A stretch of 34,144 nucleotides of DNA from a virus. The stretch spans positions 1 to 34,144 of the IMG/VR virus record IMGVR_UViG_3300049893_001655. One strand, written 5' to 3'. Under the pieces are notes generated by a model that saw only the letters and a program-made list of their open reading frames with translations, ran no database searches and was not told where the DNA came from. This document shows positions 3,074 through 26,895 of the stretch, in pieces; the first letter of the stretch is position 1, and each line of letters begins with the position of its first letter. A program made the translations under genes and the position numbers.

Positions 3074-3346
3074 GTGGCCCTGAATCCATTTCTCGGTGAG
3101 ACCCGCGCCAACTTAGAGTCGTGGTTGGCAATTGCACGGAAGGATCTTGCCTTGGGTAAAACGGTGTCCTCCGCGGGCGCGGGCGACGTCAACACGGCAA
3201 ACCAAATCCAAATGACGCCGCTTCAGCGGATTGAGCTATTGCTTCGGGCGCTGAATAGCATCGACCCCGTCACCTACCCGGCAACGTCGATTCGCCGCGT
3301 TACTCGGACTCAGGTCACCGTCTATCCGGTGGAGGCCTACAGGTGA
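3074..3346 (+). CDS. gpW-like head-tail joining protein
   Basis: This 90-residue protein lies between the large terminase and the portal, the position of lambda gpW, a small head-completion protein that stops DNA leaking from the filled head. It has two predicted helices (LESWLAIARKDLALGK and PLQRIELLLRALNSID) followed by a short beta-rich tail (TRTQVTVYPVEAY), consistent with the compact gpW fold, although it is longer than gpW (68 residues). The start is a GTG; an ATG at 3067 is in another frame and stops quickly. The stop overlaps the GTG of the portal gene (GTGA). The assignment rests on position and helix pattern rather than on a diagnostic motif. Confidence 0.6.
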   Translation: MALNPFLGETRANLESWLAIARKDLALGKTVSSAGAGDVNTANQIQMTPLQRIELLLRALNSIDPVTYPATSIRRVTRTQVTVYPVEAYR

Positions 3347-4899
3347 AACCAGTCGTGTTATACGGACCCAAAGGGCAAAAGCTGACCCTTAACAGTGGGT
3401 CCAACCGGATGATCGGTCCGGCTACTGTGACGCGGGACCGGCGTCAAATTCCGTTGCTGAACGATGACTTCCACCGGAACCTATCGGCATACGGCAGGAC
3501 GCTTCTTTTAACGCTGGGCCGGCATGTCTACTGGGCCAGCGGAGCGGTCCGCGGAGCGGTCGAGGATTTTGCCACGTATGCTTCGGGAAGCTTCATGTGG
3601 GAAAGTCGCTCGGCTGATTCGGAGTGGCGCAACCTAGCCGAGGGCAAGCTCTACTTGCACGACCGCTTTTGCGACATCTCCGGGCCGCCGCATACTATGC
3701 GCACATTCCGGAAAACCTTGGTTCGAGCTCAATATCTCGACGGTGATCTTGGAGTGATCTACGTGCGCGACGACGAAGGCCGGCCATACATGCAGGTGAT
3801 TCCATCTCACCGTATTGCCTCGTGTGGAGTGAATGTAGAGGGCGGGCCGTGGGATGGGGCGCGAATTATCGACGGCGTTATCGTGGACGATTACAACCGC
3901 CCGATGGCGTATCGGGTGCTGACCGGCGCAGCCGGAGACCTCAAGGAATACATTGATGTCTCAGCCGGCAGCATGGCGCTGTTCTTTCAAGCATTGGTGC
4001 CTGGGCAACTCCGCGGAGTGTCTCTTTTGGGGGCGAGTGCTTGGGACGTGCAGGATCTTACTGAAAGCAAACGCTGGGAACTCCTTGCCCAGAAGGCTGG
4101 GGCCGGACGGGTCTTTCAGGAATGGAACGAGGATGGAGAAGCGCAACCTGGGGCCGACCATATTGACGCTCCGGACGCGTCGGCGCCAGGCACCGCGTCT
4201 GGAATGTGGCGGGAGGTCATCGATGCCGGGATCAACACGTATTTTAAGAGCTCAGACATCGGAGCACGCATCGAGGCTGTCAAGTTTGACAGACCGTCTT
4301 CGAATCAGCAGGCGTTTGTTGCCCAGGTATGGCGGGAAGCCATGGCCGGGGCCAGGCTTTCCGTGGATTTCAACCTTGATTTAACACGCATCGGTGGCGC
4401 TCCGTTGCGCGTTCTAATCGACAAGATCAACCTCAACCACCAGGACAATCAGCAGGAGGTGATTGAGCCGGCGTGCAGACGCTTTGACTTTTTTCGGCTT
4501 GGCGCGTTCATACAGCTTGAGGAGCTGCCAATTGTAAATGATTGGTGGTCCTTTGAGTATCAGCCCGGTGAACGACTGACGGCTGATAAGAAATACGACT
4601 CGAGCGTCAGCGCGGAACAGATCCGCATCGGAGTTAAGACCCGATCACGCGCGGCCATGGAGCTCGGAGAGGCCCTGGCTGACGTCCGCGATGCCAGGGA
4701 ACGGGAGGCCGATGATCTCTTTGCAAGGGCCAGTCGCATCTCAACGAAATATCCGGACATCCCGCTTGATGTTATTCTGTCGCGGTTGGAGACGGATTCC
4801 CTCAACCCAACGACATCGGCGTTTCAACCGTCCGGAAAGGAAACGGCAGACAATTCCGAGGATCAAAGTGAAAACACGACGGAAAGTGAGGATGCATGA
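3343..4899 (+). CDS. Portal protein, lambda gpB family
   Basis: This 518-residue protein forms the ring at the unique capsid vertex through which DNA is packaged and to which the tail connects. The pattern is that of the lambda-family portal: an N-terminal segment with RNPVVRGAV-like content (here YWASGAVRGAVEDFATYA), a central region QVIPSHRIAS, the Pro/Gly-rich VPGQLRGVSLLG segment about halfway, and a charged C-terminal tail rich in Ser, Glu and Asp. The start is GTG, overlapping the previous stop by 4 bp. The stop overlaps the ATG of the protease gene by 4 bp, so gpW-like protein, portal and protease are translationally coupled. The length is normal for the family. Confidence 0.92.
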   Translation: MKPVVLYGPKGQKLTLNSGSNRMIGPATVTRDRRQIPLLNDDFHRNLSAYGRTLLLTLGRHVYWASGAVRGAVEDFATYASGSFMWESRSADSEWRNLAEGKLYLHDRFCDISGPPHTMRTFRKTLVRAQYLDGDLGVIYVRDDEGRPYMQVIPSHRIASCGVNVEGGPWDGARIIDGVIVDDYNRPMAYRVLTGAAGDLKEYIDVSAGSMALFFQALVPGQLRGVSLLGASAWDVQDLTESKRWELLAQKAGAGRVFQEWNEDGEAQPGADHIDAPDASAPGTASGMWREVIDAGINTYFKSSDIGARIEAVKFDRPSSNQQAFVAQVWREAMAGARLSVDFNLDLTRIGGAPLRVLIDKINLNHQDNQQEVIEPACRRFDFFRLGAFIQLEELPIVNDWWSFEYQPGERLTADKKYDSSVSAEQIRIGVKTRSRAAMELGEALADVRDAREREADDLFARASRISTKYPDIPLDVILSRLETDSLNPTTSAFQPSGKETADNSEDQSENTTESEDA

Positions 4900-5741
4900 A
4901 ATTGGCCTATCTGCTTGAACAGGTTTTTTCCCAGCCTGCCCTGATTCTGCCGGAGGCCCATGCGGCGATCCGAAAACTCCTCGAGGAGAGATTGGATGAG
5001 GCTGCGCTTTTTTCCCCAGAGGCGGCGCAACGGAAAGGAACCTACTGCGGGAGCTCGGTGAATCTGCCTTCAATGGAAATCATTGACGGGATCGCCCACA
5101 TTCCGATCGGTGGTGCCGTCGGACAAAAACTTTCCGGCTTTGCCAAGTACGCGGGAGCCGTAGACGTGGCGGACGTCGCCGTAGACATTACTGAGGCCGA
5201 GGCGGATAACGCCGTGAAGGGCGTGCTATTCGATATCGATTCCCCTGGGGGCATGGTCACCGGCACGCCGGAGCTTGGCCAAGCCATCTTGGACATGAAA
5301 AAGCCGCGCATTGCATTCACCAACGGCATGATGGCTAGCGCGGCTTATTGGATAGGCGCATCCACGGAAGCCGTCTTTGCAACACCAAGCGCGCAGGTCG
5401 GATCGGTTGGAGTGTACATGCCGGTCGTTGATGTCTCCGGCTGGTATGGGCAGCAAGGCGTCAAGGTCGAACTCATCAAGGCCGGCAAGCTGAAGGGTAT
5501 CGGATACCCCGGAACGACTCTTTCAGAGAGCGCGAGAGAGCATCTCCAGGCGCGGGTGAATCAGATTTACTCAGACTTTAAGGGGCACATTCGTGCCAGA
5601 CGTGGCGACATCGCGGATGATGCCATGCAGGGACAAACCTTTTACGCCAGCGACGCAGCTACCCTCAACCTGATCGATGGCGTAGTGAAGAACAAAGCCG
5701 AAGCGGTTGACTTCCTGAAAGAAGTGATCGCAATGCAATGA
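4896..5741 (+). CDS. S49-family prohead protease (lambda gpC-like)
   Basis: This 281-residue SppA-like serine peptidase probably processes scaffold and portal during prohead maturation. Visible motifs are the oxyanion-forming segment FDIDSPGGMVTG, the nucleophile segment GMMASAAYWIG with Ser148, and the Ser-Lys dyad lysine region IKAGKLKGIG (Lys198 or Lys200). In lambda and many relatives a scaffold is encoded in frame inside the 3' part of the protease. Here the protease ends at the catalytic domain, and a separate coiled-coil gene follows at 5901, which may supply the scaffold. The start ATG overlaps the portal stop. Confidence 0.92.
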   Translation: MKLAYLLEQVFSQPALILPEAHAAIRKLLEERLDEAALFSPEAAQRKGTYCGSSVNLPSMEIIDGIAHIPIGGAVGQKLSGFAKYAGAVDVADVAVDITEAEADNAVKGVLFDIDSPGGMVTGTPELGQAILDMKKPRIAFTNGMMASAAYWIGASTEAVFATPSAQVGSVGVYMPVVDVSGWYGQQGVKVELIKAGKLKGIGYPGTTLSESAREHLQARVNQIYSDFKGHIRARRGDIADDAMQGQTFYASDAATLNLIDGVVKNKAEAVDFLKEVIAMQ

Positions 5742-24600: not shown

Positions 24601-25446
24601 TCAAAGAGCCCAGAACCTGGCGCAGTCCTCCGGGCTGACGAGCTCGTGGTAGTGGTTGAGCAGGATTCCTGGAGAGTTCCCGAGCATCATCGCAACCTTG
24701 CCAGCGTCGCGGTGCAGGGCCAGCAGGTAGGACGCCGCGGTGTGACGGAGCAGATCGTGAGGCCAGCGTTCCCAGCCGAGGGCGCGCTCGATGCGGCGGC
24801 GGGGCCGCACGTGCGAGAGCGGGGCCACTGCGCCTTGTTGCTTGGGAGCCTTCGAGAGCCAGTGCACTGCGATGGGTTGGGCTTGAATGAGGCGTCGGCG
24901 CCTGACCTTGCTCGCAGCGGCGTCCACGCGAATCATGCCACGGGCAAGATCGATGCACGCCCAATCGAGGCGTTTTAGCTCCGCCGGGCGCACGCCGCAG
25001 TAGAGGCCGAGAGCGACATAGGCCAGCAGCTCCGGAGAGTGCTCTGTTGTGGCTCGGATCAGCTCGCCGGCCTGCTGGGGCGTGAGAATTGTTGGCGGGC
25101 TCCTCTCAAGACGAACCCTGTCAATTCGGGCAACAGGATTACTGTCAACATGCGATCGTCGAAACGCGAACGAGAACAACGCGGATAGCCGAGCGATCAG
25201 TGTCGCCCTGGTCCCCGGTTTCTGGGCGTTGGCGTCAATCCAATCACCCACTTCCGCGACCGTCACGGACTTGATCGGTTGCGTTTCTCTTCCATCGCAG
25301 AACTGTCTAAGGACCCGGCGCAGCTCCCGCACGTAGCACGGGCGAAGGTTGGACGCCTCTTTCGCTCTCATGCACTGCTCGAACACCTCGCCCAGGGTCG
25401 CAGTGCATGGCTGCGGCTCCATGAATAGCATATCGGTAATCCCCAC
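24601..25446 (-). CDS. int: Tyrosine-family integrase
   Basis: This 281-residue site-specific recombinase has an N-terminal SAM-like core-binding domain (about residues 15-105) and a C-terminal catalytic domain. Catalytic residues visible are Arg153 (YCGVRPAEL), Lys180, His230 and Arg234 (HDLLRHTAAS), Asn257 in place of the usual second His (LGNSPGI), and the nucleophile Tyr266 (LNHYHELV). The start is taken as the GTG at 25446; ATG codons at residues 6 and 9 are alternatives. It begins 7 bp after the stop of the RHH gene, so the two are probably cotranscribed in the free phage. The attP core lies 42-87 bp upstream, inside that gene, so integration removes the upstream part of this transcription unit. 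Confidence 0.93.
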   Translation of the reverse strand: MGITDMLFMEPQPCTATLGEVFEQCMRAKEASNLRPCYVRELRRVLRQFCDGRETQPIKSVTVAEVGDWIDANAQKPGTRATLIARLSALFSFAFRRSHVDSNPVARIDRVRLERSPPTILTPQQAGELIRATTEHSPELLAYVALGLYCGVRPAELKRLDWACIDLARGMIRVDAAASKVRRRRLIQAQPIAVHWLSKAPKQQGAVAPLSHVRPRRRIERALGWERWPHDLLRHTAASYLLALHRDAGKVAMMLGNSPGILLNHYHELVSPEDCARFWAL

Positions 25447-25453
25447 ATTTCCT

Positions 25454-25774
25454 TTAGTAGGCAGCGCAGAGCATGGCCGGGTTCCACGTTGCCAAGGTGA
25501 ATGTCGAGGGTTCGAATCCCTTCGCTCGCTCCATCTCCTTCAGAACCTTCGCTCGCTTTTTGTCTTCCTCCAATTTCCGCAGAGCCTCCAGGCGCATCTG
25601 CTCAAACGCGATCGGAAGTCCTGCCAAATAGGCCCGCCTCGCGAGTTCTGACTGATTCTTCAGCTCAAGAGAATCGACCAAATCACAGAAATTGCGCCAA
25701 GTTACGGCGTCTGCTTTGAAGCCGATGGTACCCTTTCCATCATGCTTGTCGTTTTTTGTTCCGGTGTCTTTCAT
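25454..25774 (-). CDS. RHH regulator whose 3' end contains attP
   Basis: The ATG at 25774 gives 106 residues. Residues 15-52 fit a ribbon-helix-helix DNA-binding domain: strand TIGFKAD, helix AVTWRNFCDLVDSL, turn, helix QSELARRAYLAGL. A charged coiled coil (about 56-82) follows. Residues 82-95 (ERAKGFEPSTFTLA) are the antisense translation of the tRNA-Gly attP core, and the last 11 residues (TWNPAMLCAAY) come from the phage arm beyond it. It could be the lysogeny repressor or an excisionase-like factor. It is divergent from a second RHH gene and 7 bp upstream of int. No Shine-Dalgarno sequence is seen. The C-terminus must change on integration. Confidence 0.7.
   Translation of the reverse strand: MKDTGTKNDKHDGKGTIGFKADAVTWRNFCDLVDSLELKNQSELARRAYLAGLPIAFEQMRLEALRKLEEDKKRAKVLKEMERAKGFEPSTFTLATWNPAMLCAAY
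25489..25533 (+). other. attP core: 3' half of tRNA-Gly(GCC)
   Basis: The 45 bases read, in tRNA order, as anticodon loop TTGCCAA (anticodon GCC), 3' anticodon-stem strand GGTGA, a short variable region, the T-arm GAGGG-TTCGAAT-CCCTT, the 3' acceptor strand CGCTCGC, discriminator T and CCA. The 5' half of a tRNA is missing: the bases before 25489 do not pair with the anticodon stem and give no D-arm. Integrases of this class recombine within tRNA genes and carry the 3' part so that the tRNA is rebuilt. Phage genes on both sides show this is attP, not attL or attR. Confidence 0.88.
25519..25557 (+). repeat. 12-bp direct repeat beside attP
   Basis: CCTTCGCTCGCT occurs at 25519-25530, inside the tRNA-like core, and again at 25546-25557, 27 bp downstream. 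Both copies lie in the RHH coding region, encoding RAKG and RAKV. The second could be an integrase arm site or a trace of an older core exchange. Confidence 0.5.
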
Positions 25775-25783
25775 AAATTTTAT

Positions 25784-25890
25784 CAACCCGATAACCCTAT
25801 AAATACAGGCCACGCTAGTCCGTTGGTTAACCAATAGCAAGAAGCACTAAAGATTTTTGTTGCAGATTCGGTTACGCGGTTATACGGTTA
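25784..25890. promoter_or_regulatory. Divergent control region with 8-bp-spaced GGTTA repeats
   Basis: Three CGGTTA words begin at 25869, 25877 and 25885, exactly 8 bp apart, just before the rightward RHH gene. On the opposite strand GGGTTA and GGGTTG words (TAACCC at 25792-25797, CAACCC at 25784-25789) lie 8 bp apart before the leftward RHH gene. Between them is the perfect palindrome TTGGTTAACCAA (25823-25834). RHH proteins such as MetJ bind tandem 8-bp boxes, so this array is a good candidate operator for one or both RHH proteins. The 25775-25895 interval contains no gene. Confidence 0.6.
25857..25886 (+). promoter_or_regulatory. Candidate rightward early promoter
   Basis: TTGTTG (25857-25862), an 18-bp spacer and TATACG (25881-25886) resemble a weak sigma-70-type promoter. 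The three CGGTTA repeats overlap its spacer and -10. Transcription would start within a few bases of the ATG at 25896, so the message would be leaderless or nearly so. Promoter consensus in this host is unknown. Confidence 0.35.
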
Positions 25891-25895
25891 ACGCG

Positions 25896-26090
25896 ATGAA
25901 TGAAGCAACGGATTGCGAAGTCGGGGTTCCGAGGACCATCGGCTACAAAACCAAAGAGTTGGCGCCCGTCCTGAAGAAGTGGAGAGACCGAAACCCAGGT
26001 GTTCCGTGGGCCTACCTGATTCGGGCCGCGCTAAAAAAGGAACTGCGCGAGATTGCGGGAAAGCGGCTATCTCACCTCGTTGAGTCCTGA
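25896..26090 (+). CDS. Second RHH-type regulator
   Basis: The start is the ATG at 25896, giving 64 residues; an upstream in-frame TTG is inside the repeat array. Residues about 12-52 show the RHH pattern: strand RTIGYKTK, helix ELAPVLKKWRDRN, turn, helix PWAYLIRAALKKELREIA. The TIGY/TIGF strand is shared with the divergent RHH protein, so the two may be related and bind related sites. As first gene of the rightward early unit it takes the place that Cro has in lambda-type switches. No Shine-Dalgarno sequence is visible, consistent with a leaderless message. Confidence 0.65.
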   Translation: MNEATDCEVGVPRTIGYKTKELAPVLKKWRDRNPGVPWAYLIRAALKKELREIAGKRLSHLVES

Positions 26091-26323: not shown

Positions 26324-26602
26324 ATGAGTGAATCATCCAACAAAGGCCGCCCCGTTATTATTTGCACGTCCTATAAAGGCGTATTTTTCGGCTACGCCGA
26401 CTCAACGACTGGCGACGTTATTCACCTAACCCGGGCCAAAATGGCCATCTACTGGGGAACTTCGCGCGGGGTGATGGAATTAGCCGACACTGGACCGACT
26501 AATAAAAGCAAGATTTCATCCCCAGCCGACATTGAACTGCGCGGGATCACTGCGGTTTTCGAGGTTACTCCGGAAGCTGTTACAAAATGGGAGTCAGCAT
26601 GA
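26324..26602 (+). CDS. Small phage protein, DUF6948-like
   Basis: The ATG at 26324 gives 92 residues. The pattern RPVIICTSYKGVFFGYADS, then IHLTRAKMAIYWGTSRGVME and ADIELRGITAVFEVTP, resembles a small beta-rich phage family (DUF6948) found in early regions. Its function is unknown. The stop overlaps the next ATG (ATGA). The family name is from memory of the pattern and has not been checked by search. Confidence 0.6.
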   Translation: MSESSNKGRPVIICTSYKGVFFGYADSTTGDVIHLTRAKMAIYWGTSRGVMELADTGPTNKSKISSPADIELRGITAVFEVTPEAVTKWESA

Positions 26603-26895
26603 GTTGGCCGATCTACCGGGCGAGAGTTACAGCCTTTGAGCTGCTGGAGTCGGGGGCGTGTTGTGATGGAGTTGCGCGCGCGGCGTTAAAGCACGGTTTA
26701 TCACAACCGACCGAAGCAGCTTTGGCTCTCGCTGGTGCACACCGCGATTACGTTGAGGCAGCAACGTATTCCGACGGCTACGGCGACGGCTACGGCGACG
26801 GCTCCGGCTACGGCTACGGCGACGGCGACGGCTACGGCTACGGCTACGGCGACGGCTACGGCGACGGCTACGGCTACGGCGAGTTAACCGCATGA
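26599..26895 (+). CDS. Protein with Gly-Tyr/Gly-Asp repeat tail
   Basis: The ATG at 26599, overlapping the previous stop, is preferred over the ATG at 26587. The 98-residue product has an N-terminal helical domain (RARVTAFELLESGACCDGVA; TEAALALAGAHRDYVEAA) and a C-terminal repeat of Gly-Tyr and Gly-Asp dipeptides (about residues 60-94), ending ELTA. The helical domain resembles no family I know. The tail would be flexible, aromatic and acidic, of a kind that can drive phase separation or bind calcium or nucleic acid. Its function is unknown. The stop overlaps the next start. Confidence 0.6.
   Translation: MSWPIYRARVTAFELLESGACCDGVARAALKHGLSQPTEAALALAGAHRDYVEAATYSDGYGDGYGDGSGYGYGDGDGYGYGYGDGYGDGYGYGELTA
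26776..26880 (+). repeat. Hexanucleotide repeat GGCTAC / GGCGAC
   Basis: There are seventeen consecutive 6-bp words, mostly GGCTAC (Gly-Tyr) or GGCGAC (Gly-Asp) with one GGCTCC (Gly-Ser), followed by a final GGC. The words are in frame with the host gene, so gain or loss of units changes tail length without a frameshift. This is a likely slippage hot spot. Confidence 0.9.

Follow-up and report, generated by a model that had tools for sequence, protein, structure and literature searches.

In mycobacteriophage BPs, in the phages of Clusters G, I, N, and P, and in Gordonia, Bifidobacterium, and M. abscessus prophages, immunity depends on integration, according to Broussard 2013 as relayed in PMC4557955, PMC9262239, PMC9934374, and PMC6109161. 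These BPs-type systems place the phage attachment site (attP) inside the repressor gene (rep), join rep and the integrase gene (int) in one operon, use a host tRNA gene as the bacterial attachment site (attB), and take the rep stop codon at attL from host DNA; their att sites consist of the core only, and no recombination directionality factor (RDF) is present (PMC4557955, PMC9262239, PMC9934374). The long and short repressor forms of BPs differ in stability (PMC4557955), an ssrA-like tag being what leads to destruction of the long one. The published primer for the BPs short repressor ends in an antisense tRNA frame, E-P-P-T-F-stop. A related locus is described here in the IMG/VR virus record IMGVR_UViG_3300049893_001655, whose 34,144 bases were analysed as a whole and are called the window below; its terminase, portal, and capsid genes mark it as a tailed phage, and the source is an uncultured phage infecting Verrucomicrobia-type bacteria. 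The locus combines a small regulator gene, which holds the attP core in its 3' end, with a tyrosine integrase gene, and it is probably (at roughly 60%) an integration-dependent lysogeny switch, in which the shortened regulator serves as the prophage repressor. The literature searched reports systems of this kind from actinobacterial phages and prophages alone; hence, the locus is probably a variant that extends a known switch type to another phylum, and its repressor looks different and lacks the known degron.

The attP core in the regulator gene and its host target

The small regulator gene (rep, RHH1-like) occupies 25454–25774 on the minus strand (321 bases), and its open reading frame, running from 25774 to 25454, encodes 106 residues with the ending FTLA-TWNPAMLCAAY. 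The attP core is situated within this frame at 25489–25533 on the plus strand, as proposed in the initial annotation, and its 45 bases are the 3' half of a tRNA-Gly(GCC), from the anticodon loop TTGCCAA to CCA. Residues 82–95 (ERAKGFEPSTFTLA) are the antisense translation of this tRNA half, and residues 96–106 are encoded beyond the core by the phage arm, both in agreement with that annotation; the latter segment, TWNPAMLCAAY with its stop codon (25454–25489, minus strand), is the viral-only C-terminal tail that would be lost on integration. Rfam yields a weak, broken tRNA match at the core (18 bits, below the cut-off), and ARAGORN finds no complete tRNA anywhere in the window; therefore, 25489–25533 represents a 3' tRNA fragment and attP core rather than a tRNA gene. 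The N-terminal part of the regulator frame has the highest codon score among the six frames. The integrase frame, too, stays open across the attP core (25446–25539, minus strand), without a start codon, and thus could fuse to host-flank sequence at attR.

Host targets were searched for with the exact 44-base core, which matched in 45 genome stretches. Nearly all of these are from Verrucomicrobiota, and most belong to a single order, around Limisphaerales/Pedosphaera-like genomes. In 44 of the 45 stretches the core lies within an intact tRNA-Gly(GCC), the remaining one (L026) being an attR. Every one of the 44 intact genes gives TLA-R-stop at the end of the antisense frame, since the complement of TCACC, the 5' strand of the anticodon stem, reads GG-TGA, and the FTLA-R-stop ending predicted for the integrated form is thereby recovered. 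Assembled in silico, the attL product has 96 residues instead of 106 and ends in FTLAR, without the 11-residue tail, as had been anticipated. Since the attP core sits inside the end of the regulator gene, integration at tRNA-Gly must, as the sequences stand, shorten the regulator from 106 to 96 residues; the position of the crossover within the core is irrelevant to the product because phage and host are identical over its whole length. In the same in-silico integration, the regulator ends up at attL, next to the restored tRNA, and the integrase at attR, off the regulator's promoter.

That attB overlaps a host tRNA gene, which integration would restore, is seen from the 44 intact genes and, in addition, from the attR of L026/L100, a Verrucomicrobia metagenome-assembled genome. 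Its positions 1–606 contain a phage arm followed by the core, with an armless integrase 39% identical to that of the window and oriented as in the window. The flank on the far side is 90% identical over 671 bases to the sequence that follows the intact tRNA-Gly on its downstream side in L018, a related genome; this identifies the site as an attR junction and implies that this integrase type really uses tRNA-Gly as attB. Genomes with two cores were rejected as sources of relatives. In G247 (L094/L095, C268:8557–34476), an unrelated element of about 26 kb is located between tRNA-Gly core repeats; a distant integrase (28%) lies just outside it, and the tRNA-Gly seems to be a hot spot. In G108 and G305 the assembly or the tRNA seems to be duplicated, and G072 contains two tRNA variants. 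The weak regulator match in L008 was ruled out as a prophage attL, being interrupted by stops.

The divergent regulator region and the armless integrase

Between the two divergent regulators lies a putative promoter/operator region (25775–25895). Six copies of GGTTA/TAACC occur in this 122-base intergenic region, where 0.11 would be expected, and two is the most that any equally long stretch elsewhere in the window holds. A repeat with an 8-base period is found, within the window, only in the intergenic region, and there on both sides. Its operator-like copy GGGTTATCGGGTT (25785–25796, minus strand) adjoins the rep start, and the copy CGGTTACG-CGGTTATA-CGGTTA (25869–25890, plus strand) stands right before the rightward gene, with a central palindrome, GGTTAACC, at 25825–25832. 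The rightward gene (25896–26090, plus strand) encodes a small regulator with an RHH-like pattern (RHH, ribbon-helix-helix) in the cro-like position and is the first gene of the rightward early operon. On the opposite side, rep is directly followed in the same transcript direction by the tyrosine integrase gene (24601–25422, minus strand, 273 residues), whose start at 25422 comes after the rep stop (TAA-AGGA). The locus thus has the rep–int order and spacing, the divergent cro-like gene, and the repeats between, and cotranscription of rep and int is predicted from this layout. Among the early genes scanned, neither a CI-type repressor nor an excisionase or RDF was seen.

The integrase lacks the N-terminal arm-binding domain, most of its relatives being longer by about 90–110 N-terminal residues. 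Its C-terminus (RFWAL) and that of the integrase of a second phage, L002 (RFWEIRP), are both without an ssrA-like tag. The best genomic relatives (40–44%), most of which immediately follow an intact tRNA-Ala or tRNA-Val gene and are oriented in the usual way, have no bearing on the switch.

L002 has the same gene order as the window, with an integrase 84% identical. Over the core and the start of the arm, the two phages share 50 identical bases read in the same frame; the L002 tail, TWGPARLCAGY, also comprises 11 residues, three of them different, and the regulator stop is then followed by AGGA, as in the window (TACTAAAGGA). The regulator therefore stands above chance, because its codon score is the highest and the frame, the core, the tail length, and the stop are kept in L002. 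The L002 regulator (5020–5286) is homologous in its start region, with a diverged N-terminus (27% identical, E 3e-4). DNA similarity between the two phages is 74% and goes no further than the 3' end of the core (25533 in the window, 5207 in L002), as if recombination at the core had attached different early regions to a common integrase module. Beyond the core, the early genes are diverged but syntenic; the L002 counterpart of the rightward regulator is located at 4733–4912 on the minus strand, and the L002 intergenic region carries a different motif, GTGCAC, with three copies in 12 kb, all of them in that region. A search of viral contigs with the regulator alone returned no relative. The rep–int layout with the divergent pair of small regulators is common to the window, L002, and a third record, L113 (IMGVR_UViG_3300012179_000003, 3262–4798), whose armless integrase is 45% identical. 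In L060 and L075, integrase relatives, one of them a short armless form, are preceded by antisense remnants of other tRNAs; these sites are possibly the attR or attP of similar systems. In the window, a 102-residue open reading frame with a long GDGYGDGYGYG tandem repeat (26587–26892) adjoins a DUF6948 gene.

Comparison with BPs, P22, and lambda-type systems

As in BPs, int is placed directly downstream of rep in the same direction, a cro-like gene diverges from rep, attB is a tRNA gene, the integrase is armless, and no RDF was found. In both systems the stop codon at attL is derived from host DNA, and the antisense tRNA ending reads EPPTF-stop in BPs and FEPSTFTLAR-stop in the window. Immunity of the BPs type is conferred by the short form only. 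The two systems differ in several respects. The host phylum is Verrucomicrobiota in the present case and Actinobacteria for the BPs type; the window regulator is short and RHH-like, without a Pfam match; the lost tail has 11 residues compared with 33 in BPs and is not ssrA-like; and the window integrase has no ssrA-like end. Of the BPs-like logic proposed in the initial annotation, the layout (rep–int operon, divergent cro-like gene, armless integrase, and operator clusters) stands, but the degron does not.

In the case of P22, Arc and Mnt resemble the window regulator in their small size, the strand-helix-helix pattern as judged by eye, the setting in a phage immunity region, and the paired operator half-sites. 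However, comparison with Arc and Mnt profiles gave no significant match, and neither protein is rewritten by integration. The regulator has a weak PHROG match to partition proteins (E 0.02), and its partner gene in L002 has weak matches to an Arc-like repressor and the VapB antitoxin; these matches weakly suggest a regulator of the ribbon-helix-helix type. Single-sequence structure models, with predicted local distance difference test (pLDDT) scores of 57 and 62 and no PDB match, are too weak to judge the fold. The lambda-type tyrosine integrases that use tRNA genes, including those of Akkermansia phages (29–30% identity), have in common with the window integrase the catalytic domain and a tRNA attB, whereas most of these relatives possess an N-terminal arm-binding domain and usually lie beside an intact tRNA. 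Compared with the lambda type, the window int is at the attR end and is transcribed away from the core.

The proposed switch and its alternatives

The proposed switch builds on the layout, the truncation at the tRNA, the armless integrase, the operator-like repeats, and the conservation in L002. In the free phage, a leftward promoter would drive one message for the 106-residue DNA-binding regulator and the armless integrase downstream. Recombination by the integrase between the host tRNA-Gly gene and the attP core, which the regulator gene carries at its 3' end, would restore the tRNA, and the antisense TGA from the anticodon stem would end the regulator as FTLA-R-stop, at 96 residues and without the viral tail. 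Simultaneously, integration would separate the integrase gene from the regulator's promoter. The shortened regulator would then hold the lytic operon off via the repeated sites between the divergent regulators. Within this scheme, the regulator would be the immunity repressor, and its two forms would differ in activity or stability.

An open frame is by itself weak evidence because about one fifth of host tRNA-Gly loci show at least 90 open codons in this frame by chance. Several observations weigh against such a switch. The DNA-binding role rests on the weak profile matches and on position, and the viral tail is not ssrA-like and varies in its residues (TWNPAMLCAAY and TWGPARLCAGY). In the attR of L026, the antisense frame would continue for 52 residues past the core; hence, a short tail is no general rule. 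Neither 320 genomes of the order, nor 384 sampled from the class, nor IMG/VR yielded the attL of a close relative. The same 320 and 384 genomes contained no integrase that, over most of its length, was more than about 44% identical, and a core-pattern search for the integrated form in viral contigs returned only phage tRNA arrays (L102, L103) and L002.

A narrower version of the switch, in which the viral tail works as a BPs-like degron and the repressor becomes stable on integration, is doubtful. It is consistent with the BPs-like layout and with L113, where the protein in the regulator position, upstream of int, has the ssrA-like ending SLISAA. However, the host ssrA tags (ANQELALAA, ANTELALAA, and ANEELALAA) all end in ELALAA, whereas the window and L002 tails end in tyrosine (LCAAY and LCAGY), and the earlier suggestion that the LCAAY ending might act as a degron is not borne out. 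Homology between the L113 and window tails was rejected, their DNA similarity not rising above shuffles (p 0.17), and an attP of L113 was looked for and not located.

Somewhat more doubtful still is a real truncation with a neutral tail, arising from compact packing, in which int cut from its promoter would lock in the prophage and both forms would regulate their own operon or excision equally. The integrase gene directly follows the regulator gene and would lose its promoter on integration; together with the lack of a recognisable degron and the three of 11 tail residues that differ between the window and L002, this favours a neutral tail. The codon score of the tail region, which is not coding-like in the regulator frame although the tRNA dictates most of this region, points the same way. 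Against this stand the retention of the frame, the tail length, and the stop in L002 and the complete BPs-type arrangement, armless integrase included, the BPs forms being known to differ in stability (PMC4557955). In the proposed switch, the tail may act by means other than an ssrA-like tag, or it may be neutral, in which case integration would chiefly serve to part int from its promoter. A tentative extension, which falls short of even odds, is that integration-dependent immunity arose independently outside Actinobacteria with an unrelated small RHH-type repressor, whose tail would disable the protein by means unlike ssrA, such as another protease signal or interference with dimer formation or DNA binding.

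It is unlikely that the small protein is an accessory factor of excision or integration beside attP rather than a repressor. Such a role would fit its operon with int beside attP, the lack of any other RDF, and a putative fold, but operator-like repeats flank both divergent starts, no other repressor candidate except the divergent partner was seen among the early genes scanned, and armless systems of this type need no RDF (PMC9262239). A chance antisense frame is very improbable, in spite of the fifth of host loci with 90 or more open codons and of the open GFEP-type frames that antisense tRNA genes commonly give. Against it stand the top codon score of the N-terminal part, the homology to L002 at the start together with the frame kept there, and the way the reading frame takes up the space from the operators to int, with AGGA right after the stop in both phages.

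If the proposed switch is correct, the coupling of immunity to integration through an attP in the repressor gene would not be a speciality of actinobacteriophages, and the design would have emerged at least twice, in every case pairing an armless integrase with a tRNA gene that contributes the stop codon from its antisense strand. The general principle, in which integration edits the repressor, would then be separable from the one implementation that has been worked out, the ssrA-like degron. Meanwhile, the locus would provide testable switches in a phylum with little-studied temperate phages.
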